Under the pieces are notes generated by a model. The model worked only from the letters and a program-made list of their open reading frames with translations. It was not told where the DNA came from and searched no databases. From a virus, in IMG/VR virus record IMGVR_UViG_3300005265_000549, positions 25,202-89,201 of that record: a DNA stretch of 64,000 bases. One strand, written 5' to 3'. Below are positions 33,810-55,316 of this stretch, in pieces. The number at the start of each line of letters is the position of its first letter. Positions within the stretch are counted from its first letter, which is position 1. Position numbers and translations under genes: made by a program.

Positions 33810-34403
33810 TTAAAATCCATCGTTAAATGGATCAGTTTCATTAAATTCTAATATATCTGTAAAAGTTTGAATTGAATCATCTTTAGCTGATATTTTATCT
33901 TCTAATATATCAATATTAATATCACCTGTATCAAGAATTTCTCCTGAATAATTCCATTTTTTAGCTGAAAAAGTAAATAAAGTTTGTCCTCCAGCTAAAT
34001 AAAATATTTCTTCATCTTCTACAAATGATATTTCAAAAATCACTTTATTAAATTTAAATTGAATTAAATCTCCAATCTCTGGTAATTCACCACCTAATAA
34101 TTCAATCATATAATTTTGTTGAATTTTTAATTTTAATGTATCATCAATTTCTAAACCAAATTTAGAAAAGAAATCTTGTTGACCACCAAAAGCTGTATAA
34201 TCATCTAATAACATCTTACATTCAATTTTTTCATCAAATGTTGATAAATCATCTTCACCAAATAAATCATCTTGAGCTATAGATGTTCTTGGTAAATAAA
34301 TTACAGGAATACCATATTGTTCAATATATTCTAAAGTATTATCATTATATAAAGCATATTCATTTGAAGAATTTTCTTCAAAAAAATTAAAATAACCCAT
34401 CAT
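33810..34403 (-). CDS. 14: Neck protein (gp14-like)
   Basis: 197 residues (T4: 256). GIPVIYLPRTSIAQDDLFGEDDLSTFDEKIECKMLLDDYTAFGGQQDFFSKFGLEI carries the family segments (G-x-x-V-x-Y-L-P-R, L-F-G-E-D, and a D-x-F-G-G-x-x-x-x-x-S-K-F-G-L run). gp14 and gp13 join head and tail. The C-terminus is shorter than in T4. It ends before a strong terminator and follows gp13 by 36 bases. Confidence 0.82.
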   Translation of the reverse strand: MMGYFNFFEENSSNEYALYNDNTLEYIEQYGIPVIYLPRTSIAQDDLFGEDDLSTFDEKIECKMLLDDYTAFGGQQDFFSKFGLEIDDTLKLKIQQNYMIELLGGELPEIGDLIQFKFNKVIFEISFVEDEEIFYLAGGQTLFTFSAKKWNYSGEILDTGDINIDILEDKISAKDDSIQTFTDILEFNETDPFNDGF

Positions 34404-35462: not shown

Positions 35463-36254
35463 TTAATTTAGTGATGTTACAAATTGTCCAGCTAAAAATT
35501 TAACATCATCATTTAATCCTACAGCTTGATCGACTACATTCGTATTATCATACATCAACATATTACCGGCATTTAAATCATCACATAATGCTGTTGCAAC
35601 AATAGTTCCCCAAGAACCAGAAGGTGTATTAAATTGAATGTTTGTATTATTATTCAATGTTCCAGTTGTTGCAGTTGACCAATCTGAAAAAGCTTTTCTA
35701 GCATAGTTATTTCCAGCAGGATCTGAAACTGTTGATCCTGTATCTGAATCTGAAACAGTAGCGGTAACCAATGCAACATAAATTGATGGTTGTGCATAAG
35801 ATGTATTTTTGAACATAAATTCTAATAATGCATTTGCTAAATAATCTGACATTCCTGTTCCAGAACCAGCATTTACACTAATAACAACTTCACCAGATGC
35901 AATTGATGGGGTACTATTAACAACGACATTAATATCATTATTTAATGAACCATAAGCTAACATATTACCACCTGAAGAAGCATCAAATATAGCATAATAA
36001 CCATATGTTTCATCTCCAGAAGTAGATTTTGGAAAAGTAACTGTTCCAGATTGTGTTATTGCTCTTGATGCTGCTGCGCCAAATGTAATAGCTTTTCTTG
36101 TATAAGAACCATACGTTGCTTCAGTCCATCCTGAAGCATCTTCACCAGCATCTGTAGAACTTAATGCAACATAAACAGTAGAAACTTGTGAATAAGAAGT
36201 ATTCCCAAAAATATGATTTAAGATTGCATTTTCTGCATAATTTGTTAAACTCAT
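35463..36254 (-). CDS. Tail fibre-associated protein with internal duplication
   Basis: 263 residues in two related halves: 1-125 (SLTNYAENAILNHIFGNTSYSQVSTVYVALSS...) and 133-263 (MSDYLANALLEFMFKNTSYAQPSIYVALVT...). Each has the helix L-x-x-x-F-x-N-T-S-Y and then YVAL, followed by ARKA/TRKA and a GNMLAYG / GNMLMYD turn. This is a phage tail-protein family often found once per gene. The SD GAGG overlaps the stop of the giant fibre gene, 8 bases upstream, so the two are co-transcribed. Confidence 0.6.
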   Translation of the reverse strand: MSLTNYAENAILNHIFGNTSYSQVSTVYVALSSTDAGEDASGWTEATYGSYTRKAITFGAAASRAITQSGTVTFPKSTSGDETYGYYAIFDASSGGNMLAYGSLNNDINVVVNSTPSIASGEVVISVNAGSGTGMSDYLANALLEFMFKNTSYAQPSIYVALVTATVSDSDTGSTVSDPAGNNYARKAFSDWSTATTGTLNNNTNIQFNTPSGSWGTIVATALCDDLNAGNMLMYDNTNVVDQAVGLNDDVKFLAGQFVTSLN

Positions 36255-36262
36255 TTTTTACC

Positions 36263-38965
36263 TCATTTTTGAATATTGATTACTATTAGTGGGAAATCTT
36301 TTTCCTCACTTACATTTTCAATTTTTTGTTTATAATCAATTAATTTTTCTAATTTAAAATTAATACTCTCATTATTTATCAAACTAAAATATTCTTTATT
36401 TATTTTTCGTTTTTCACTAACATTTTCTAATTTTCTAAAAATAGTTTTATTTATTTTTTGTTTATCAAGAACTTCATAATAATTTTTCTCTAGAGGAATT
36501 CTTAATAATTTTGTGAATATACTATTATTATTTATATGTCTGAAAATTGAAACATTTTCAATTTTTGAAAAATCAGAAATATTTTTAATTCTTGTTTTAA
36601 GTATTTCACCTAAATAATCCCATAATAAAATAATATCATTATTAATAAATTCTAATTCATTAATATTAGATAAAAATTCTCTATAACAAAAAATATCAAT
36701 ATTTGAAAAATCAAAATTAACATTAATACTATTTTCAAATGTTTTTGTAATTATCGCATTGATTACATCAATGACAATATTATTATTTATATTATTTAGT
36801 AATTCAGAAATTTTAAATATTTGAATATCTGAAATATTTAAACTATTTAATTTATTAAATTCTAATAATCTTTCAATCGAAATAACAATATTATCATTAA
36901 TATTAAATTCAATATCATTAACACTATTAAATTCTCTATCTATATTAATTAATAATGATGATACATTAATATTATTATTAATATTTGAATTTATTGCCCA
37001 ATAATTATATAAATTAAAAGTATTTAAATTAAATTGTAATTCTAATTGACTTAATAAATTTCTTTCAATTGAAACAATAATAATATTATTATTATTAAAT
37101 TCATTTTCAATATTAGAAATTATTTCTCTATCAACAGTAATATCAACATTTGTAATATCTAAAATTGAAGTTGCTTCACAAGAAAATTTATGAAGATTTT
37201 TAACTTCAATATCTTTTGAAGTAACAATATTATCTATTGTTGAAATTAATAATCTTTCATTTGAAACAATACTATTTGAAAGACTAATTATATTTTCAAC
37301 TTCAAATTTTCTTCTACTATGTTTTATTTCCCGTAAAACAACTGCTGCTGCATCTGAAGTAACAAAATATCCTAATGCTGGTTGAAGAAGAAGTTCTCTA
37401 TTATTAAGATATCTTATAACAAATGCATCAACAATATTTGTTTCTGTATTGATTTGAATATTTGCATTGAAAAATCTATCAGTAACTTCAATTGCATTAA
37501 CAATATTTGTTTCTGTATTGATTTGAATATTTGCATTTAATTCAATATTTCTAGAAACTATTACAATACTATTTGATAATGAAGTTTCTATTGAAATATT
37601 TGAATTAAAAAATCTTTCAGTAACTGAAATTGCTTCAATATCTGATGCATCAATATTATTTTCAATGAATGCTACAAGTGGAATACCTGTAATTTCTGAT
37701 GCTTTAATATCATTAACATTAAATTCTATTTGAATATTAGAAGTTAATGCTTTTTCTTGTGCAATATAAATTTCTGAACATATAAATGAAGAATTTATTT
37801 CACAACTATAAGTTGAAGCAATATTAACATCACTACAAATAAATAATTCTTCGTGTCCTGGATAAAATACTTCATTTGGAAAAATTCTTTCACCAGGATA
37901 TTTACTTTTTAATATATCTGCTTTTAAGAAAACATCTTTAACACTTTTAGCATCAATATCTGTAACTGTTATTTCATTATTAATTGTTGCTGATAATGAA
38001 TTTTCTAATGAAACATCTATATTATTATTAATAACAGTATGTCTAATTGTTGAACGTAAATTTATATCAGTAACTTCAATTGCATTAATTTTAGAACAAA
38101 CAAATTGATCTTGTAAACCAGGATAAAAACCATTATTAGGATAACTATTATTTGTTGGATAATCTTGTCTAAAAATATTAGCTTTAAATTGTCTAATATT
38201 TGTTAATGAAATATCAGTTATAGAATAACAATTTTCAATAAATGCTACAAGTGGAATACCTGTTATTTCAACTGCTTCAATATTTGAAAGATTTATTACT
38301 GATTGAATATTTGTATTAAAATCAGTAATAAAATAAAATTCAATATTTGAATTTATAAAATTAGTAAGAATATTAGTTCTTAAACTTGTTTCTGTGACTT
38401 CTTGAACATCTAAATTAGAAGTTATAAAATCATTGACAATATTTGAAATAAAATAATAATTATTTCTACAAAGTACTAGTGATATATCAAAATCATTTTT
38501 GATATCAGCAATTAATGGAATTATATTTTCAGCTATTGGAACTGATAATTTAACTGTATGTCTGATTATTGAACGTAAAGTTCTTTCAGTAGATTCAATT
38601 GCTTTAGCTGATGAACAAACAAATTGATCTCTTAAACCAGGATAAAAATCATTATTAGGTAAATTTGATACTTTTGGATAAGTTTGTTTATGAATATCAG
38701 CAGCTAATAATCTTTCAACTGAAATACTAATTTCAGAATTATCAATAGTATTTTCAATAAATGAATTAAATAATATTCCTTGTTCTACTTCTACTTTTAT
38801 TTCATTATTATCAATAACACTTTCAATATTTGCTTCATAATAAAAATGTTTAATTAAATCAATATTAGAACAAGTTGTATTAATATCTAAATTAGTTCTA
38901 AAGGCTGAAATACCAACTATTTGTGGTTCAACGTCTGAAGTTTGTGTATTAACAGGAATATTTGC
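36263..38965 (-). CDS. C-terminal 900 codons of the giant tail fibre, out of frame and lacking a start
   Basis: Reading the minus strand from 38965 gives 900 open codons ending in TGA (36265-36263). I translated it line by line and found no stop and no ATG, so it cannot be called as a gene by itself. It continues the repeat family of the upstream ORF (ANIPVNTQTSDVEPQIVGIS, three YPG...DQFVCS modules, then a repeat-free helical end KIENVSEEKDFPLIVINIQK). It is one frame off the upstream ORF; removing 5 bases around 38966-38970 restores E-F-T-A-N-I-P-V-N-T. The last ~350 residues have short N-x-I/E-F units. Confidence 0.7.
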   Translation of the reverse strand, partial: ANIPVNTQTSDVEPQIVGISAFRTNLDINTTCSNIDLIKHFYYEANIESVIDNNEIKVEVEQGILFNSFIENTIDNSEISISVERLLAADIHKQTYPKVSNLPNNDFYPGLRDQFVCSSAKAIESTERTLRSIIRHTVKLSVPIAENIIPLIADIKNDFDISLVLCRNNYYFISNIVNDFITSNLDVQEVTETSLRTNILTNFINSNIEFYFITDFNTNIQSVINLSNIEAVEITGIPLVAFIENCYSITDISLTNIRQFKANIFRQDYPTNNSYPNNGFYPGLQDQFVCSKINAIEVTDINLRSTIRHTVINNNIDVSLENSLSATINNEITVTDIDAKSVKDVFLKADILKSKYPGERIFPNEVFYPGHEELFICSDVNIASTYSCEINSSFICSEIYIAQEKALTSNIQIEFNVNDIKASEITGIPLVAFIENNIDASDIEAISVTERFFNSNISIETSLSNSIVIVSRNIELNANIQINTETNIVNAIEVTDRFFNANIQINTETNIVDAFVIRYLNNRELLLQPALGYFVTSDAAAVVLREIKHSRRKFEVENIISLSNSIVSNERLLISTIDNIVTSKDIEVKNLHKFSCEATSILDITNVDITVDREIISNIENEFNNNNIIIVSIERNLLSQLELQFNLNTFNLYNYWAINSNINNNINVSSLLINIDREFNSVNDIEFNINDNIVISIERLLEFNKLNSLNISDIQIFKISELLNNINNNIVIDVINAIITKTFENSINVNFDFSNIDIFCYREFLSNINELEFINNDIILLWDYLGEILKTRIKNISDFSKIENVSIFRHINNNSIFTKLLRIPLEKNYYEVLDKQKINKTIFRKLENVSEKRKINKEYFSLINNESINFKLEKLIDYKQKIENVSEEKDFPLIVINIQK

Positions 38966-41900
38966 TTAGCAGTAAATTCTCTTTCAACTTTAAAATTTAT
39001 TATTGAATTATAAACAGTATGTCTAATTATTGAAATAATTTCATGATCAATATCAACAAACATATCAATTTTAGATGTTATGTATTGATCAGCAATTCCT
39101 GGATAAATTAAATTTCCTGGATAATAATCATTTTCTGGATATACTTGTTTAAAAATATCAGCTACAAAAGGAATAACTTTATAACAAATTACATTTGTGA
39201 TTTCTGTAGTAACAGGAATATTTGTAACTAATTCAATTTTATGAAATGAAGTTGCTATCGCATCTGATAAACTAAAATCTAAAGAAATATCAGAAACTAT
39301 TTCAATTGCTCCAGCTCCAGTAACATCAATATCTGTAATTTCTGTATTAACAGGAATATTTGCAATTAAATCTTTATGAATTATTGCATCAATATCTGTA
39401 ATTTCTGTATTAACAGGAATATTTGCAACTAAATCTCTAGAAATTATTCGTTCAACATCAATATCTGTAATTTCTGTATTAACAGGAATATTTGTAATTA
39501 AATCTCTTTCATTATCAACAGTAATTAATTCTATATCAGAAATTATTGAAATGTTTGCTGATAAACCAATTCCTGTAATTTCAAAAACAGTAATATCTGA
39601 ACAAACAAATTGATCTGGAAAACCAGGATAAAATGTATCTGAAGGATATATTATTGTTCCAGGATATAATTGTTTAAAAATATTTGATCTAAATTCACGT
39701 TTGACAGCAAATATTGTATCTGATAAATTAAAATTATTATTAATTGAAGATGAAAATTCTCTAGCTACTGAACAATCTAAATCTCCTAAATAAAATGTTC
39801 CAAGAGAATTAGCTGTAAAAGTCAATGATGTAGTTTCTGTAGCTTCGATTTCTGAAACATCAAATTCAATACTAATATCAGTTTCTAATTCTCTATCAAC
39901 TTCAATATCAACATTAGAAGTTTTTGAAGTATGAATAACTTCTGAACTTAATGGTCTATCAGTAACTTCTATAGCATTAATATCTGAAGTTTGTGTAGTA
40001 AATGAAATATTTGTTGATAAATTATGTTCAACATTAGAAATAGGATTATTTAAACTAAATTCTAGTTGTATATTTGCATTTAATGTTTTTTCAGTAACTT
40101 CAATAGCATCAATTTTAGATAATACAAATTGATCTGAAATACCAGGATAAAAAGTTATTCCAGGATAACTACTATCATTTGGAAAAAGTTGTCTAAATAT
40201 ATCTGCTCTGAAATCACGTTCATTATAAAAAATTGCGTTTGATAGTGAAAAATTACATAAATTATTTTCACTTAAATCACGTTCGACACTAGAAATAAAA
40301 TTATTTAAATTAAATTCTGATTGAATATTTGCACTAAATTCTCTATCATTATCAACTATTGGATTGGCTAAAGAAAATACAATAGGAATATTAGAGGTAA
40401 TATCTCTTTGAAATAAAATTTCATCAATATTTGAAGTTTGTGTAGTAAATGAAATATTTGCTTCAAATTCATGATTTAAACCTAAATAAAAATTTTCAAC
40501 ATTAAAATCAATTGAAATTTGTGCAGTAAGACTAATTCCAGTAGTTTCTAAAGCTGTAACATTTGAACAAACAAATTGATCAGCTATTCCAGGAAATACT
40601 TGTTCACCTGGATAATAATCATTTTCTGGATATACTTGTCTAAATATATCTGCTTTTAAATCTCTTTCAACTATTCCTTGAATATCTGTAGAATCAATAT
40701 TAATAGGAATAGAAGTATTAAATTCTCTATCTATATCAACTATTGGATCAGTTAAATTAATAACATTTTGAATATTAGAACTAAATTCTCTATCTATATC
40801 AACGATTGGATCAGTTAAATTAATAACATTTTCAATTGATGTTGATAATTCTCTAATTATATCTAAATCAACATTTGTAATTTCTGTATTAACAGGAATA
40901 TTTGCAACTAAATCTCTATGTACTAATGACTCAATATTTGTAATTTGAGAAGTAAATGGTTGATTAGCTAATAATTCACGGACTCCATAAAATATTGTGT
41001 CATTAGTTGAAAAAGAAATATTAATATTTGAAGATAATTCTCTGATAGTAATTTCAACAATATCAATTTTAGATAATACAAATTGATCTGAAATGCCAGG
41101 ATAAACCCCATTTCCAGGATAAAATGTAGTATTTGGATATAATTGTCTAAATATATCTGCTCTGAAATTTCTTTCAATAATTAATTCAATATCAGAAATT
41201 TCAGAAATATTTATAATTGAAGCAGATAATTCTCTATCTATATCAACTATTGGATTAGTGAAATCAATATCATTAGAAATTGTAGCAGATAATTCTCTTA
41301 AAACAGTAGAGTCAACATTTGTAATTTCTGTATTAACAGGAATGTTTGATTCTAATTCTCTTAAAACAGTAGAGTCAACATTTGTAATTTCTGTATTAAC
41401 AGGAATGTTTGATTCTAATTCTCTTAAAACGGTAGAGTCAATATCTGTTATAGAAGAAATAACAGGAATGTTTGATTCTAAAGATCTAACAATATAAAAA
41501 ATTGAATTATTAGTTAAAGTTGAATTACTTATATTACTAGATAATTCTCTATCTATATCAACTATTGGATTAGTTAAATTAATAACATTTTGAATATTTG
41601 AAATTAAATCACGTTCAACAGTAGAATCAACATTAGTAATTTGATAAGTCGTAGATATATTATTATCTAATGATCTTACAACATGAAAAATTGCATCATT
41701 AGTTAGAGTTGAAGCACTAATATCAGCTTCAAAAGTAATAACAGTAATTTCAATAATATCAATTTTAGATAATACAAATTGATCAGATATACCAGGGTGG
41801 ACACCATCTCCTGGATAAAAATTTGAGGAAGGATAGAGTTGACGATAAATATCAGCTCTTAAATCACGTTCATTATAAAAAATTGCATCTGAAATTGATA

Positions 41901-44900
41901 GATTAACTGATAAAGTAGCTAATAAATCTCTTTCAGCTTTAACATTAATATCATTTGTTTGAGAAATTAAACTTATATTTGTTGATAATTCTCTTACTGA
42001 TGACAAATCAATAACTGAATTAGAATATACAATTGAAATTGAAGATACTAAATCTCTTTGAACTTTAGAATCAATATCAGTTAATGAAGAAACAAATGGT
42101 AAATTTGTTTCTAAATCTCTTTGAACTTTAGAATCAATATCAGTTAATGAAGAAACAAATGGTAAATTTGAACTTAATTCACGTTCAGCTTTTATATTAA
42201 TAATATTTAAAGAATCTGGTAATCTATTTGATGAATGAAATTTATTAGATATTATATTATCAGTAGGACAAATATTTGAATAATAAAGCTCGTCGAAAAG
42301 AAGGGAGTTTCCATAAGATTTACGACGTGCCATTTCTAACTTACCATCACCAGCATAAGTGAAATAATTATCTCCCAAAGATGAGCCGTCGAATTCCAAT
42401 ACACCATTAACATACATTTTAGGATTACCGCCATTTTTCCAGGTAATATCTATTGTATATTCAGTATTGGCAGAATAATTAATAAAACCACCCACATAAG
42501 ATCCATTTGCTGCTAAAGCCATACCAATATCCCGCATCACAGCGTGTAATTGTAAGGTTGTCCCCTGACAAATCGTACATAATGTTCCATTCGTATACCC
42601 ATCATGGTCTGTCATTTCCTTTTCAGAATTAACCACAAAATGTACATGACCATCTTTGGTTAGATCAAGATCAGTCTGGTAATTCAACTTCCCAGCAGAC
42701 CGTGAACCATCGACAAAGGAAGTTGAGAAGGATTTTTTTTCGAGTTGAACCCCGTCAACATATATAATAGCGCTTTTAGCACAAGGTATGCTTCCACGAA
42801 GCCTTAAAGCAAACTCAATATTTGTTTCATTTGAGGTTGTAAAAATAGTTTCCAGTCTTTCAAATTTTGAATTGTCTCCACTAGAATAAGCACTCCAATG
42901 AGTTATGTACCCTCCGTCATAATATTCAATAATTTCAAGTTTAACATTCTCGGATGTTTTTACATAAGCAGTAAAAGCATAAGTTGTGTCAACAGTGGCG
43001 GAAATTTTACTGGCTGGGGAAGCAATCGTCGCAAAAAAGTTATCAGCTTCCGAAGCATCAGTCGTAATCTTAACTGAATAATCTCCAAATTTACTTGTTT
43101 CATTTGTCCGAACTATTGAGCAACGATAACTTCCCTCCCAATCATCTAAATTAATTTCTACAGAAGGATTTGATGCCAAATTCTCTGTCGCTTCCTCAAC
43201 CGCTACCGCACCACCAAACTTACCCTCATCAGGACGCATGGTAACAAGATATCCAGGCTCTGGAGTTATTGTTTTATCTACAGAAGTTAAACTATTTTTT
43301 TTATTTAATTCTTCATCATATTCATAAAATTGAAAATCATCAAAATATATTGTATTAGTTCCTGTTCCATAATTAGGAAGAGTCATAAATACAATATATT
43401 CAGTTCCTCTACGAAATTTATTATATACTGGTTGTTGATTATATAAATTAACACCTTCAATAATTCCAGAATAATTAGTCCATTCTATTGGAGCAATCAT
43501 ATTAGAAGCTAAATTATAATTATAAGATGCACCTGATGAAGAATTTCCAATTTCAGTACCTTTAGAAAATGATGCTCCAACAGTATATCCACTATATAAA
43601 GTAATTTTCCAAATATCTTTTGATGAAGTTGTTGTTTTAGTATAAGGATATAATGTTGAACCTTCAGTTACTTGTTGACCCCAAAGATATAATCCAGAAG
43701 AACCATCACCTTGATAAGAATTTGAACCACTTACTCTTATATGATTATGAAGATTTAAAATTGTTGCATCAGATCCAGTTGTTATTGGAACAGAACATCT
43801 ATACCAACCACTACCAACAGATTCAATTGCTACTCCAGAACTACCTGTACAGGTTCCATTCGTTAAATCAAAATAACCATTAACAGATACTCTTGTTGAA
43901 TTATTATCATAATAATAAAAAGCTAAAGTATCTCTTTCTCCTTTTTTAGCATATACTGACATATTATAAGTAGTGCTTGAAGAAATACTAATATCGGTTT
44001 GATAAGTATAATGATAATTGTCATCAGAATTTTCAACTAATTTATCTGCAGTAGTCGTTCCATCTGGTGCAGTTATCGCATTTGCAGAAATTGAAGCATA
44101 ACCACAATGATTTGGAGAAGTATCAAAAGCTTCACTTTGTAAAGCAATATTTGTTATAGTTTCTATTGAATCAGAATCTGAAGAAATTCTTAAAGTTTTA
44201 TCTGGTAATTCATGATCATCTTCAGTAGGATTAAATTGAATAAATGAATTTGAAACAGCAAACCAATTTTCACTTGCTGGTTCAACATAAACAATATTAT
44301 CACTAGAAGTAACATCAGCAGCTAAAGTTGTATCTTTATCAGGATCTCTCCAACATGCAGCATAAGAAATAGTATTTTTATTTTTATCTAAACATTTAAA
44401 ACCTAAATAAATTTTAGCACTATCGCTAATAGATTTTATAGCTACTTCTTCTTTATATTTTTTTTCTATACAAACATTTATTGGAATATCAGAAAAATTA
44501 CTATTTGTAGATGTAACTTTAACACAACCTAATTCTTTAAAACCTTCAGTTCCATCATATACAAAACTAGAAAAATTTGTATTATTTTTATATTCTAAAT
44601 TTCCATTATAAAATAAATTATCTTTATCAAATCTAAATAATTTTTCTTTAATAGAAGAAATATTAATTTCATTAATAAGTTTTCTTATTAAATTAGCTTG
44701 AATATCTTTACCAGTTGGTATATCTAATCTTGAAGGGCCAGCAAATATTTCTTTTATTTTATTATCTGTTGGACAATAAATACTATAATAAAGCTCATCG
44801 AAAAGGACAGAATTAACACATTGACCAACATATCTACCCATTTCTAACTTACCATCACCAGCATAGGTAAAATAATCATCACCTAAAGAACTACCATCAT

Positions 44901-45462
44901 ATTTTAATTCACCATCAACATATAATTTAGGATTACCACCATTTTTCCAAGTGACATCTATTGTGTAATCAATACTTTTTGTAAAAGATTGAATATAATG
45001 ACTTGAACCTTTTACTATTAAATATAAACCACTTTGATACATCCAAATATCTAACTGACGTGTGGTTCCCCGTCCGATAGTACACAAAGCACCACTATAA
45101 TAACTAATATGATCTGTTGGATTTTTATGAGAATTAACCACAAAATGCACATGACCATCTTCAGTCAAATCAAGATCAGTCTGGTAATCCAATGCTCCGG
45201 GAGCAGTAACTTCTACAACTTCAATATTATCGTAATAAACAGTATTATCAACTGAACTAACTGTTGAATATAAATAAACTCTTGCTTGAGTCGTTCCAGC
45301 AGGCATAGTCACGATAATTTCTAATTCTTGCCACGATCCATTACCTTCTCTAGAAATTGTATGACTTGATGGTGTTGTCTGGTCTCTAAGATTTATATAA
45401 GCATAATTTCCAGATTCTGCAAAAAAATTAACTTTAAGTCTATAAGTTTTATTTTCACTCAC
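38917..45462 (-). CDS. Giant tail fibre, central part (2181 aa)
   Basis: The listed start is a GTG at 45462 with no SD; in the same frame it continues the fragment upstream across a single TGA, so this is more likely the middle of one protein. N to C: end of a carbohydrate-binding-like module, a LamG-like domain (QTDLDLTEDGHVHFVVNS ... TYAGDGKLEMGR), more jellyroll modules, a second LamG copy, then about 1090 residues of repeats V-x-R-D/E-L-x-A/S-N-I-P-V-N-T-E-I-T-D-I-D with six YPG/DQF modules. The last ~15 residues (KQIFLLIHKLQTLNHK) are out of frame after the 5-nt insertion. A long receptor-binding fibre is the likely role. Confidence 0.65.
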   Translation of the reverse strand: MSENKTYRLKVNFFAESGNYAYINLRDQTTPSSHTISREGNGSWQELEIIVTMPAGTTQARVYLYSTVSSVDNTVYYDNIEVVEVTAPGALDYQTDLDLTEDGHVHFVVNSHKNPTDHISYYSGALCTIGRGTTRQLDIWMYQSGLYLIVKGSSHYIQSFTKSIDYTIDVTWKNGGNPKLYVDGELKYDGSSLGDDYFTYAGDGKLEMGRYVGQCVNSVLFDELYYSIYCPTDNKIKEIFAGPSRLDIPTGKDIQANLIRKLINEINISSIKEKLFRFDKDNLFYNGNLEYKNNTNFSSFVYDGTEGFKELGCVKVTSTNSNFSDIPINVCIEKKYKEEVAIKSISDSAKIYLGFKCLDKNKNTISYAACWRDPDKDTTLAADVTSSDNIVYVEPASENWFAVSNSFIQFNPTEDDHELPDKTLRISSDSDSIETITNIALQSEAFDTSPNHCGYASISANAITAPDGTTTADKLVENSDDNYHYTYQTDISISSSTTYNMSVYAKKGERDTLAFYYYDNNSTRVSVNGYFDLTNGTCTGSSGVAIESVGSGWYRCSVPITTGSDATILNLHNHIRVSGSNSYQGDGSSGLYLWGQQVTEGSTLYPYTKTTTSSKDIWKITLYSGYTVGASFSKGTEIGNSSSGASYNYNLASNMIAPIEWTNYSGIIEGVNLYNQQPVYNKFRRGTEYIVFMTLPNYGTGTNTIYFDDFQFYEYDEELNKKNSLTSVDKTITPEPGYLVTMRPDEGKFGGAVAVEEATENLASNPSVEINLDDWEGSYRCSIVRTNETSKFGDYSVKITTDASEADNFFATIASPASKISATVDTTYAFTAYVKTSENVKLEIIEYYDGGYITHWSAYSSGDNSKFERLETIFTTSNETNIEFALRLRGSIPCAKSAIIYVDGVQLEKKSFSTSFVDGSRSAGKLNYQTDLDLTKDGHVHFVVNSEKEMTDHDGYTNGTLCTICQGTTLQLHAVMRDIGMALAANGSYVGGFINYSANTEYTIDITWKNGGNPKMYVNGVLEFDGSSLGDNYFTYAGDGKLEMARRKSYGNSLLFDELYYSNICPTDNIISNKFHSSNRLPDSLNIINIKAERELSSNLPFVSSLTDIDSKVQRDLETNLPFVSSLTDIDSKVQRDLVSSISIVYSNSVIDLSSVRELSTNISLISQTNDINVKAERDLLATLSVNLSISDAIFYNERDLRADIYRQLYPSSNFYPGDGVHPGISDQFVLSKIDIIEITVITFEADISASTLTNDAIFHVVRSLDNNISTTYQITNVDSTVERDLISNIQNVINLTNPIVDIDRELSSNISNSTLTNNSIFYIVRSLESNIPVISSITDIDSTVLRELESNIPVNTEITNVDSTVLRELESNIPVNTEITNVDSTVLRELSATISNDIDFTNPIVDIDRELSASIINISEISDIELIIERNFRADIFRQLYPNTTFYPGNGVYPGISDQFVLSKIDIVEITIRELSSNINISFSTNDTIFYGVRELLANQPFTSQITNIESLVHRDLVANIPVNTEITNVDLDIIRELSTSIENVINLTDPIVDIDREFSSNIQNVINLTDPIVDIDREFNTSIPINIDSTDIQGIVERDLKADIFRQVYPENDYYPGEQVFPGIADQFVCSNVTALETTGISLTAQISIDFNVENFYLGLNHEFEANISFTTQTSNIDEILFQRDITSNIPIVFSLANPIVDNDREFSANIQSEFNLNNFISSVERDLSENNLCNFSLSNAIFYNERDFRADIFRQLFPNDSSYPGITFYPGISDQFVLSKIDAIEVTEKTLNANIQLEFSLNNPISNVEHNLSTNISFTTQTSDINAIEVTDRPLSSEVIHTSKTSNVDIEVDRELETDISIEFDVSEIEATETTSLTFTANSLGTFYLGDLDCSVAREFSSSINNNFNLSDTIFAVKREFRSNIFKQLYPGTIIYPSDTFYPGFPDQFVCSDITVFEITGIGLSANISIISDIELITVDNERDLITNIPVNTEITDIDVERIISRDLVANIPVNTEITDIDAIIHKDLIANIPVNTEITDIDVTGAGAIEIVSDISLDFSLSDAIATSFHKIELVTNIPVTTEITNVICYKVIPFVADIFKQVYPENDYYPGNLIYPGIADQYITSKIDMFVDIDHEIISIIRHTVYNSIINFKVEREFTAKQIFLLIHKLQTLNHK
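39000..42200 (-). repeat. Degenerate coding repeats of the giant fibre
   Basis: The strongest unit is 63 bases (21 residues, NIPVNTEITNVDSTVLRELES), nearly exact in tandem at about 41290-41470. A larger module of about 40 residues, A-D-I-F-R-Q-L-Y-P...Y-P-G...Y-P-G-I-S-D-Q-F-V, recurs nine times in the reconstructed gene, near 41.8, 41.1, 40.6, 40.15, 39.6, 39.1, 38.65, 38.1 and 37.9 kb. Units vary, so the array is old with some recent duplication. Confidence 0.75.
42250..43260 (-). repeat. LamG/carbohydrate-module copy 2, less AT-rich than its surroundings
   Basis: This stretch encodes GKFGGAVAVEE, a carbohydrate-binding-like module and a LamG-like domain, all of which recur about 2-3 kb upstream (44763-46230). 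Protein similarity is high (TWKNGGNPKMYVNG against TWKNGGNPKLYVDG; TYAGDGKLEM in both), but this copy is visibly richer in G and C at third positions. It looks like a later arrival by transfer, or the donor of the other copy. Confidence 0.6.
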
Positions 45463-45480
45463 GGTGAAAGTTTGGGTAAG

Positions 45481-46368
45481 TCAACCAGCGCCTGAATTCA
45501 CACCATCTTGAACCATTTTATGCGAATATGTTCCATATTTTGATTTATCGGATACTACTGAATGAGTTGCATATGTAGAATTACAATTCCAACTCCATCC
45601 GGTTTCATCACCATCCTCAAATCCTGGATTTGTTGCTACTTTATTATCACTTCCAATAGTAGTAAATGAATTTGACCATTTACATTTTTCTAATTGCCAT
45701 TCTGAAATTGTTATTGAACCAGTAGCATCAGTAGCATCATTAAAATAAGCAAGTAAAGCAATACTTACTGTGTCATCATATACATTGAAACTATTATATT
45801 CAAATCTTTCTAAATAATCTTCAGAAGCATCTGCTTTTAAAATTGATTTTGTTAAATATCCTGCTGAAGATCCTTCAGAGTTAATAAATCTAATTGCAAA
45901 AGTAATTTTAGTAGCATCAGCAGGCCAACTATTAACTTTATATTTTCCAGAAAATGAAATTAATTCACCTGGTACTAATTCATTAGATAAATATCCAGAA
46001 ACTGATGTTGATAAATAATACCAATCATCAATAGAAGAAAAAGTTGCTGAACCATCACCATTTAAGGTAATATAATTAGAACGCCAACCAGTACCTGCTG
46101 AAAAATCAACTGAAAAATCAGCAACTAATTTATTACAATGTGATTCTTCAACTGCTACCGCTCCACCAAATTTTCCATCATCTCTAAGAGTAGTCACAGA
46201 ACCAGAAAGTGGTTCTGTTAAACCATCAGTTGATTTTAAATCAACATCAAATCTAAATAATTTAGGTTGTACTGTATCTGATTTTATATTTGCTGAAAAC
46301 AAATATGTTGCTACATCAGGATATTGACCATTATCTGGATATAAAGAATTTTTTGGATATAGACTCAT
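45481..46368 (-). CDS. Giant tail fibre, N-terminal part ending at an in-frame TGA
   Basis: 295 residues from an ATG at 46368. It opens with YPKNSLYPDNGQYPD, related to the YPG modules farther on, then DGKFGGAVAVEES and a carbohydrate-binding-like beta module; a second module (NPGFEDGDETGWSWNCNSTY) is cut at VNSGAG by TGA (45483-45481). The frame goes on without shift as LTQTFTVSENKTYRLKV, completing that module. The stop is followed by C (UGA-C), a context known to favour readthrough. It is not clear whether it is a readthrough site, a recent mutation or an error in the sequence. Confidence 0.65.
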   Translation of the reverse strand: MSLYPKNSLYPDNGQYPDVATYLFSANIKSDTVQPKLFRFDVDLKSTDGLTEPLSGSVTTLRDDGKFGGAVAVEESHCNKLVADFSVDFSAGTGWRSNYITLNGDGSATFSSIDDWYYLSTSVSGYLSNELVPGELISFSGKYKVNSWPADATKITFAIRFINSEGSSAGYLTKSILKADASEDYLERFEYNSFNVYDDTVSIALLAYFNDATDATGSITISEWQLEKCKWSNSFTTIGSDNKVATNPGFEDGDETGWSWNCNSTYATHSVVSDKSKYGTYSHKMVQDGVNSGAG

Positions 46369-47587: not shown

Positions 47588-47772
47588 TTTTTAAGTCCTG
47601 TTTTTAAATAAGTTGCAAAAGATGATAACCAAGCAGTTCCTCCATATGGAACCCATTTTAAAATATCATTATTTTTACCAAAATAACCAAGAAGACCAAC
47701 TCCAACAATTAATATCAAAGCTAATGCAAACAATGCTAATTCGTCCCCACTTCCTTCTGAAAAAAATTTCAT
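47584..47772 (-). CDS. Small membrane protein, holin-like candidate
   Basis: 62 residues with one strong membrane span (about 12-31, LALFALALILIVGVGLLGYF) and a weaker amphipathic C-terminal segment (WLSSFATYLKTGLKK). Acidic N-terminus, basic C-terminus, as for single-span holins or pinholins. It lies between two predicted cell-wall hydrolases; that context is the main support for a lysis role. Confidence 0.5.
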   Translation of the reverse strand: MKFFSEGSGDELALFALALILIVGVGLLGYFGKNNDILKWVPYGGTAWLSSFATYLKTGLKK

Positions 47773-47790
47773 TATTAACTCCTCCTTTTT

Positions 47791-48186
47791 TTATAATTTT
47801 CCAACCAATAAACTTAAATCAAATGAATCCATTTCTGTATGTATATGATTAGTCATATTTTTACCATATTTTTTTGTTATATCTTGAGCATAACCTATAA
47901 TATCACCAGCTTTTAAAAATTTACCTATAATATTTTCAAGTGGTGATATATAAAAAATTTTTATTCTCATATATTTATTTCCAATTAAAAGACCTTTATA
48001 ATAAAGATCTCCTACATAAGGATATGCTAATCTAATTATTTTACAATCAATAGGAGTATAAATTTCTTCATAAGGACGTGCTTCCCAATCAACACCTTGA
48101 TGGATATGATTTCCTCTTGGTGCTAAATAATGTCCATCACCCATTGAATCACTTCTAATTTTTGGATTTTTAGTAAATGTAAGCAT
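47791..48186 (-). CDS. M23-type metallopeptidase (LytM-like)
   Basis: 131 residues: a compact M23 domain. GNHIHQGVDWEA gives H29-x3-D33, the first two zinc ligands. GDIIGYAQDITKKYG is the typical strand, and NHIHTEM gives the H-x-H pair (H114, H116). These enzymes cut peptidoglycan cross-bridges. There is no signal peptide, so release would need a holin, or it may be a virion tail-tip part. It is next to the holin-like gene. Confidence 0.75.
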   Translation of the reverse strand: MLTFTKNPKIRSDSMGDGHYLAPRGNHIHQGVDWEARPYEEIYTPIDCKIIRLAYPYVGDLYYKGLLIGNKYMRIKIFYISPLENIIGKFLKAGDIIGYAQDITKKYGKNMTNHIHTEMDSFDLSLLVGKL

Positions 48187-54311: not shown

Positions 54312-55316
54312 TTAAGCAAATGCAAAATATATGTAATCAGCCCCATTATAATTACCATGACTATTCCCTTTAACAGTAATTCCAGAAGCATAGTAATCTA
54401 CAAAATCACTTCCGGTTGTCTCATCAGTATTATTATCTAAATCCATATATCCTTCATTTCCTGAACCTATTCCTAAACTTTTACACCACAAATGCCATCC
54501 ACCAGTTGCAGAAATAGACTTTGAAACAAACATACTTGCACCAGTCGCAAATCCCATGTCAATATTCTGTGATGTACCATTTCCAGTATAAGCACCAGTT
54601 TTAAATATACCAGGATAATCAGCAAAAGTATACATGGTAAAATCTTGATTATTTTCATTTACACTTTGACCATATCCTAAAGTCACATAAGTATCATTGA
54701 GAGCTGTATCATTCCAATTATTTGTTTCTACTCTTTCATCTGTTAGATTTAATTTTAATTTATATTCTTCTGGAGCAGTTGCATGTAAGTGTTTATGATA
54801 AACCGCCCAATCACGATCATCGTGATCATTTTTTATCCAGATCATTGTGGGAGTGGTTCCCATCAAATGATTAACTGTTTTTCCAGCCGTTCCATTTCCC
54901 GTATAAGTTTTGACTCTAAAAATTCTATTAGAACTTAAAGAACTAGCTCGAATTGAAAATCCTACATAATGAACACCATTTGTATTAATATAATTACTAG
55001 TACCTAAAGTAAATCCAGTCGTCCCAAAAGCTGTGATTTTATCAGTTGCTGTAAAATATTCATCCGAATTATCAGGATTTAATTGTACATTAACACCATT
55101 TACAGTATCTGAACATTGCCATCGACCATCAGTACCATCTCTATTTTTAACAACAGCTAATCCTCGATTATTAACTAAATCAAGATCAGTTGTAATTGTT
55201 TTAGCTAAATCAAGATCAGTTGTAATTGTTTTAGCTGCACCCGTTCCGGTATAAATAAATTGATCAAATATTTTAGGAAGCCCACCAACAATTTTTAATT
55301 TATCTGCTAATAACAT
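54312..55316 (-). CDS. Tail fibre/receptor-binding protein (YTGNGT family)
   Basis: 334 residues. Two copies of Y-T-G-N-G-T (KTYTGNGTAGKTVNHLMGTTPTMIWIKN, GAYTGNGTSQNIDMGF) begin jellyroll-like repeats with MIWIKN...DWAVYHKHL and GWHLWCKSL, typical of distal fibre proteins of marine myoviruses. It ends ADYIYFAFA, a common fibre end. A tandem duplication of 30 bases encodes AKTITTDLDL twice near residue 29. Likely host-binding. Confidence 0.7.
   Translation of the reverse strand: MLLADKLKIVGGLPKIFDQFIYTGTGAAKTITTDLDLAKTITTDLDLVNNRGLAVVKNRDGTDGRWQCSDTVNGVNVQLNPDNSDEYFTATDKITAFGTTGFTLGTSNYINTNGVHYVGFSIRASSLSSNRIFRVKTYTGNGTAGKTVNHLMGTTPTMIWIKNDHDDRDWAVYHKHLHATAPEEYKLKLNLTDERVETNNWNDTALNDTYVTLGYGQSVNENNQDFTMYTFADYPGIFKTGAYTGNGTSQNIDMGFATGASMFVSKSISATGGWHLWCKSLGIGSGNEGYMDLDNNTDETTGSDFVDYYASGITVKGNSHGNYNGADYIYFAFA

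Follow-up and report, generated by a model that had tools for sequence, protein, structure and literature searches.

A 900-codon frame without ATG as the likely end of a giant fibre-like phage gene cut in its record

The locus considered here raises the question of how a very long coding stretch can exist with no evident way to begin translation. The window, by which we mean the whole 64,000-nucleotide stretch that was analyzed, is part of a virus record that is 89,201 bases long. On its minus strand, a stop-to-stop frame listing shows exactly 900 open codons from 38965 down to 36263, and ORF callers leave the interval of 36.3–38.9 kb empty. We asked whether this is a gene of its own or a piece of a larger one, and how it came to be separated.

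An open frame without a start codon

A count of the possible start codons in the 36263–38965 frame finds only one, a TTG at codon 861, and no ATG, GTG or CTG; the terminal stop is TGA. The frame listing and the count agree with the preliminary description, in which 900 open minus-strand codons lacking ATG had been read from 38965. The frame is certainly coding and not a chance opening, since the GC content of the window is 24%, and random codons would be stops at a rate of roughly 9%, or about 1 in 11. It overlaps by 49 nt the end of an upstream minus-strand frame at 38917–45480, and it carries on the repeat vocabulary of that frame.

The lack of ATG is due to the composition of the repeats and not to a regulatory device. 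At the ATG rate of the window's other genes (1.62%), finding none in 900 codons has a probability of about 4e-7; with the ATG rate of the repeats upstream, the probability rises to about 0.44. Over the whole repeat part, methionine occurs once in about 2004 codons, and tryptophan is equally rare. It had been proposed that the absence of ATG lets any upstream break silence the end of the gene; the evidence points to repeat composition, with no special silencing device. ORF callers leave the interval empty because the methionine-free repeat offers no start once the frame is broken. In the phage, the 900-codon stretch would be translated within a long protein, and a start codon of its own would be unneeded.

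An independent gene, beginning at a rare start codon or with its product processed from elsewhere, is very improbable. The frame does contain ATT and ATA codons, three of them near Shine-Dalgarno-like matches of 5–6 nt, but the spacing is poor, and of the start codons counted above only the late TTG occurs; no start codon with a ribosome-binding site was found. It also has to be reconciled with the related contig described below, where 36263–38965 is continuous with the upstream frame. Still less probable is programmed −1 (or +2) ribosomal frameshifting within the 49-nt overlap, by which a long protein would be made from the two frames. A −1 shift there would indeed link them, but no in-phase X XXY YYZ slippery heptamer was seen when the overlap was read by eye, and the related contig reads in one frame with no shift at all.

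The 64 nucleotides absent at the join

A single contig, IMGVR_UViG_3300013103_000019 (L001), emerged when relatives were sought; it is 99.7–99.9% identical to the window. In this sister, a single open frame of 3093 codons (L001:3947-13228) runs across the join, so the comparison with this contig bears out the earlier claim that 36263–38965 belongs to the giant gene as its downstream end. We therefore read it not as a separate gene but as the real C-terminal end of a giant repetitive phage protein. Identity to the sister is 99.86% upstream of the join and 99.95% downstream. The sister carries 64 extra nt (L001:10462-10525) precisely at the boundary of window positions 38966 and 38965; they encode NIPSNLFVSTINAKEVTDRFFT, a repeat unit. 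The frame is broken in the record because these 64 bases are missing. The join near 38.966 kb had thus been correctly placed.

The regularity of the repeats indicates which contig has changed. A YPG-DQF super-module motif is present on both sides of the join with a spacing of 173–175 aa. When the 64 nt are restored, the spacing across the join is 175 aa, and the neighbouring spacings are 173, 175 and 173. Since the 64 nt keep this spacing regular, the window has lost sequence, rather than the sister having gained it. The preliminary description had explained the break by a plain insertion of 5 nt at 38966–38970. Its removal can bring the local repeat similarity (REFTANIPVNT) into register, but the gain is local only: the protein would still lack one unit of 23 residues, and its super-module would be shorter by that amount than the neighbouring ones. 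The sister has 64 nt more at this point and not 5 fewer, and the insertion can be regarded as very improbable. The accompanying estimate of about 3366 codons for the intact gene is also superseded. Counted from the first ATG at 46368, the length is 3389 codons, a figure that includes an in-frame TGA at 45481–45483, over which the earlier estimate had passed silently; after that TGA, the length is 3093 codons.

What removed the 64 nt can be addressed from the edges of the join. The right edge is the first base of a 21-nt exact repeat, GCAAATATTCCTGTTAATACA, which occupies 38945–38965 and occurs in four copies in the gene, the other minus-strand copies starting at 39363, 39426 and 40905. In the sister, the repeat at the join extends over 22 nt, of which the window junction omits the first, as expected of a graph edge that starts at a k=21 vertex. 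The join-edge repeat in the sister is a branching vertex at k=21 and at no other k tested, and such k=21 vertices occupy only 59 positions in the gene (sister sequence). This coincidence has a chance of about 0.6% per position and was found post hoc, and it concerns the right edge alone; on the left of the join there is no repeat vertex. The junction sequence of the window was not found in other viral contigs. Local assembly errors are documented in metagenome assemblies, with propagation into gene sequences (PMC7111523). A short-read assembler would have dropped the 64 bases at 38966/38965 by joining across the k=21 repeat. From the two contigs, we infer that the loss is quite likely a local misassembly, artefactual and not biological.

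The main competitor is a genuine deletion of 64 nt in a variant of the phage, produced by slippage during replication or by illegitimate recombination between repeats, which would truncate the fibre. The region is repeat-rich, and such repeats could mediate deletions; near-direct repeats, TTTACTGC(T/A)AATATTCC, lie 69 nt apart and span the lost segment. Length variation does occur between the two contigs, as in an in-frame 30-nt tandem copy at 55175–55204. However, loss mediated by those near-direct repeats would take out 69 nt and leave the reading frame unchanged, whereas the actual loss is of 64 nt, and there is no microhomology at the 38966/38965 join. A natural event would also have to match the k=21 vertex by its breakpoint, and it would cost 900 codons of a virion protein, though the rest of the 25 kb compared is intact. 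Over that distance, the 64-nt loss is the sole gene-breaking difference; the contigs otherwise differ by substitutions, by the 30-nt tandem copy and by two indels of one base each, the first lying just past gene 33810–34403 and the second between the endolysin- and holin-like genes. We consider a natural deletion unlikely, though it deserves to be kept in mind. Taken as a whole, the reading that 36263–38965 is the end of one giant fibre-like protein, broken by a 64-nt loss in assembly, is likely.

The case shows how public viral records can chop a giant repetitive fibre gene so that its end is lost, and a form uninterrupted across this join exists in the sister contig. As a finding, the cut-off gene end is fairly ordinary. 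What merits keeping is the giant protein of orphan repeats, together with the TGA within its carbohydrate-binding domain.

The in-frame TGA near the front of the gene

The in-frame TGA at 45481–45483 (minus strand), which splits a CBM_4_9 domain, is a more interesting lead than the 64-nt break. It is present in both contigs and cuts off the N-terminal part at 45481–46368, which comprises 295 codons from the ATG and is in frame with 38917–45480. When the TGA is read through, Pfam CBM_4_9 scores 25.9–30 bits across it, of which the value of 30 bits exceeds the cut-off. The halves taken alone give 18 bits and nothing, neither being above the cut-off. There is no good restart codon after the TGA; the next start, GTG at 45462, has no Shine-Dalgarno match.

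An alternative code in which TGA is a sense codon was ruled out. TGA is an ordinary stop in eight other genes among those counted, twice within an ATGA overlap with the following start, and it also ends the giant gene itself; none of the six tRNAs detected outside the window is a suppressor. RNA folding around the TGA shows nothing unusual (z = 0.49). The TGA may be a nonsense change in this population, it may be bypassed by an inefficient internal start, or it may be read through. If it were read through at some frequency, this would be programmed readthrough controlling the number of fibres, which we consider improbable. Because the contigs are so alike, the TGA they have in common says little about selection for it. 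Were readthrough to be true, an orphan repeat fibre of ~3389 codons would occur in the virion in two forms, or as a minority form anchored by its N terminus.

Architecture, neighbourhood and related systems

The upstream frame at 38917–45480 (minus strand, 2187 codons stop to stop) contains CBM/LamG-like modules, then a jelly-roll domain and then 21-aa repeats. The modules at the front of the gene are duplicated CBM- and LamG-like copies, 44% identical to each other, where our own reading of the sequence suggests the LamG likeness. The frame matches the tail protein family phrog_5939 (8e-24) and phrog_34853, and its residues 442–616 match PDB 6tb9, the head spike fibre Rcc01080, at 3e-26. The following approximately 2000 codons consist of degenerate repeats that recur every 21 residues. 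At the sensitivity used, searches of phages, viral_contigs and genome_contigs gave no relatives of these repeats beyond the sister, and among these databases the repeat part is otherwise an apparent orphan. One contig (L012) raised as a possible repeat-motif relative was rejected as a chance match, having no tblastn support and being unrelated. AlphaFold models were not good enough to support a fold search, both for one repeat module (beta-rich, pLDDT 36.5) and for the N-terminal read-through (pLDDT 42.7).

The gene order is a DUF4815 protein, small genes, the giant gene, a Gp80-type protein, neck proteins, TerL and the tail sheath. The small genes appear to include endolysin- and holin-like ones, as named from reading their translations. 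The next gene downstream of the giant gene, at 35463–36254 (minus strand), encodes two Gp80-type fibre/head-protein domains (Pfam PF23140, 2.7e-55; phrog_240). The giant protein has both jelly-roll homology, confined to one domain, and a virion gene neighbourhood. From that one domain match and the gene neighbourhood, we infer that it would be a tail or host-contact fibre whose shaft is formed by the repeats. The 900-codon end is plausible as the receptor-proximal part of the putative fibre.

Elsewhere in the window, the 30-nt tandem copy at 55175–55204 (minus strand), missing from the sister, lies in frame in gene 54312–55316. At 47706–47815 (minus strand), a cluster of substitutions and one indel relative to the sister falls at the boundary of the endolysin- and holin-like genes and resembles a recombination patch. 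By coordinates, the first ~9.6 kb of the sister should run past the end of the window's record, and they may carry genes absent from it.

In comparison with known systems, TerL is closest to T4-superfamily phages, e.g., Methylophilales phage Melnitz at 43% identity, and the giant gene is evidently that of a T4-superfamily phage. The likeness to those members of the group that infect aquatic bacteria (Melnitz and the cyanomyoviruses) extends to the sheath, neck and DUF4815 genes. In contrast, no counterpart of the repeat gene was seen near TerL in those of the relatives found through TerL whose contigs covered the region. Unlike the Pfam CBM_4_9 family, the domain here is split by a TGA and scores as a whole only on read-through. 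The RcapMu tail fibre and the GTA head spike fibre Rcc01080 share with the giant protein the phrog_5939/phrog_34853 jelly-roll module, but the match is confined to that one domain, and the long run of 21-aa repeats that follows it is particular to this phage and its sister among the sequences searched.
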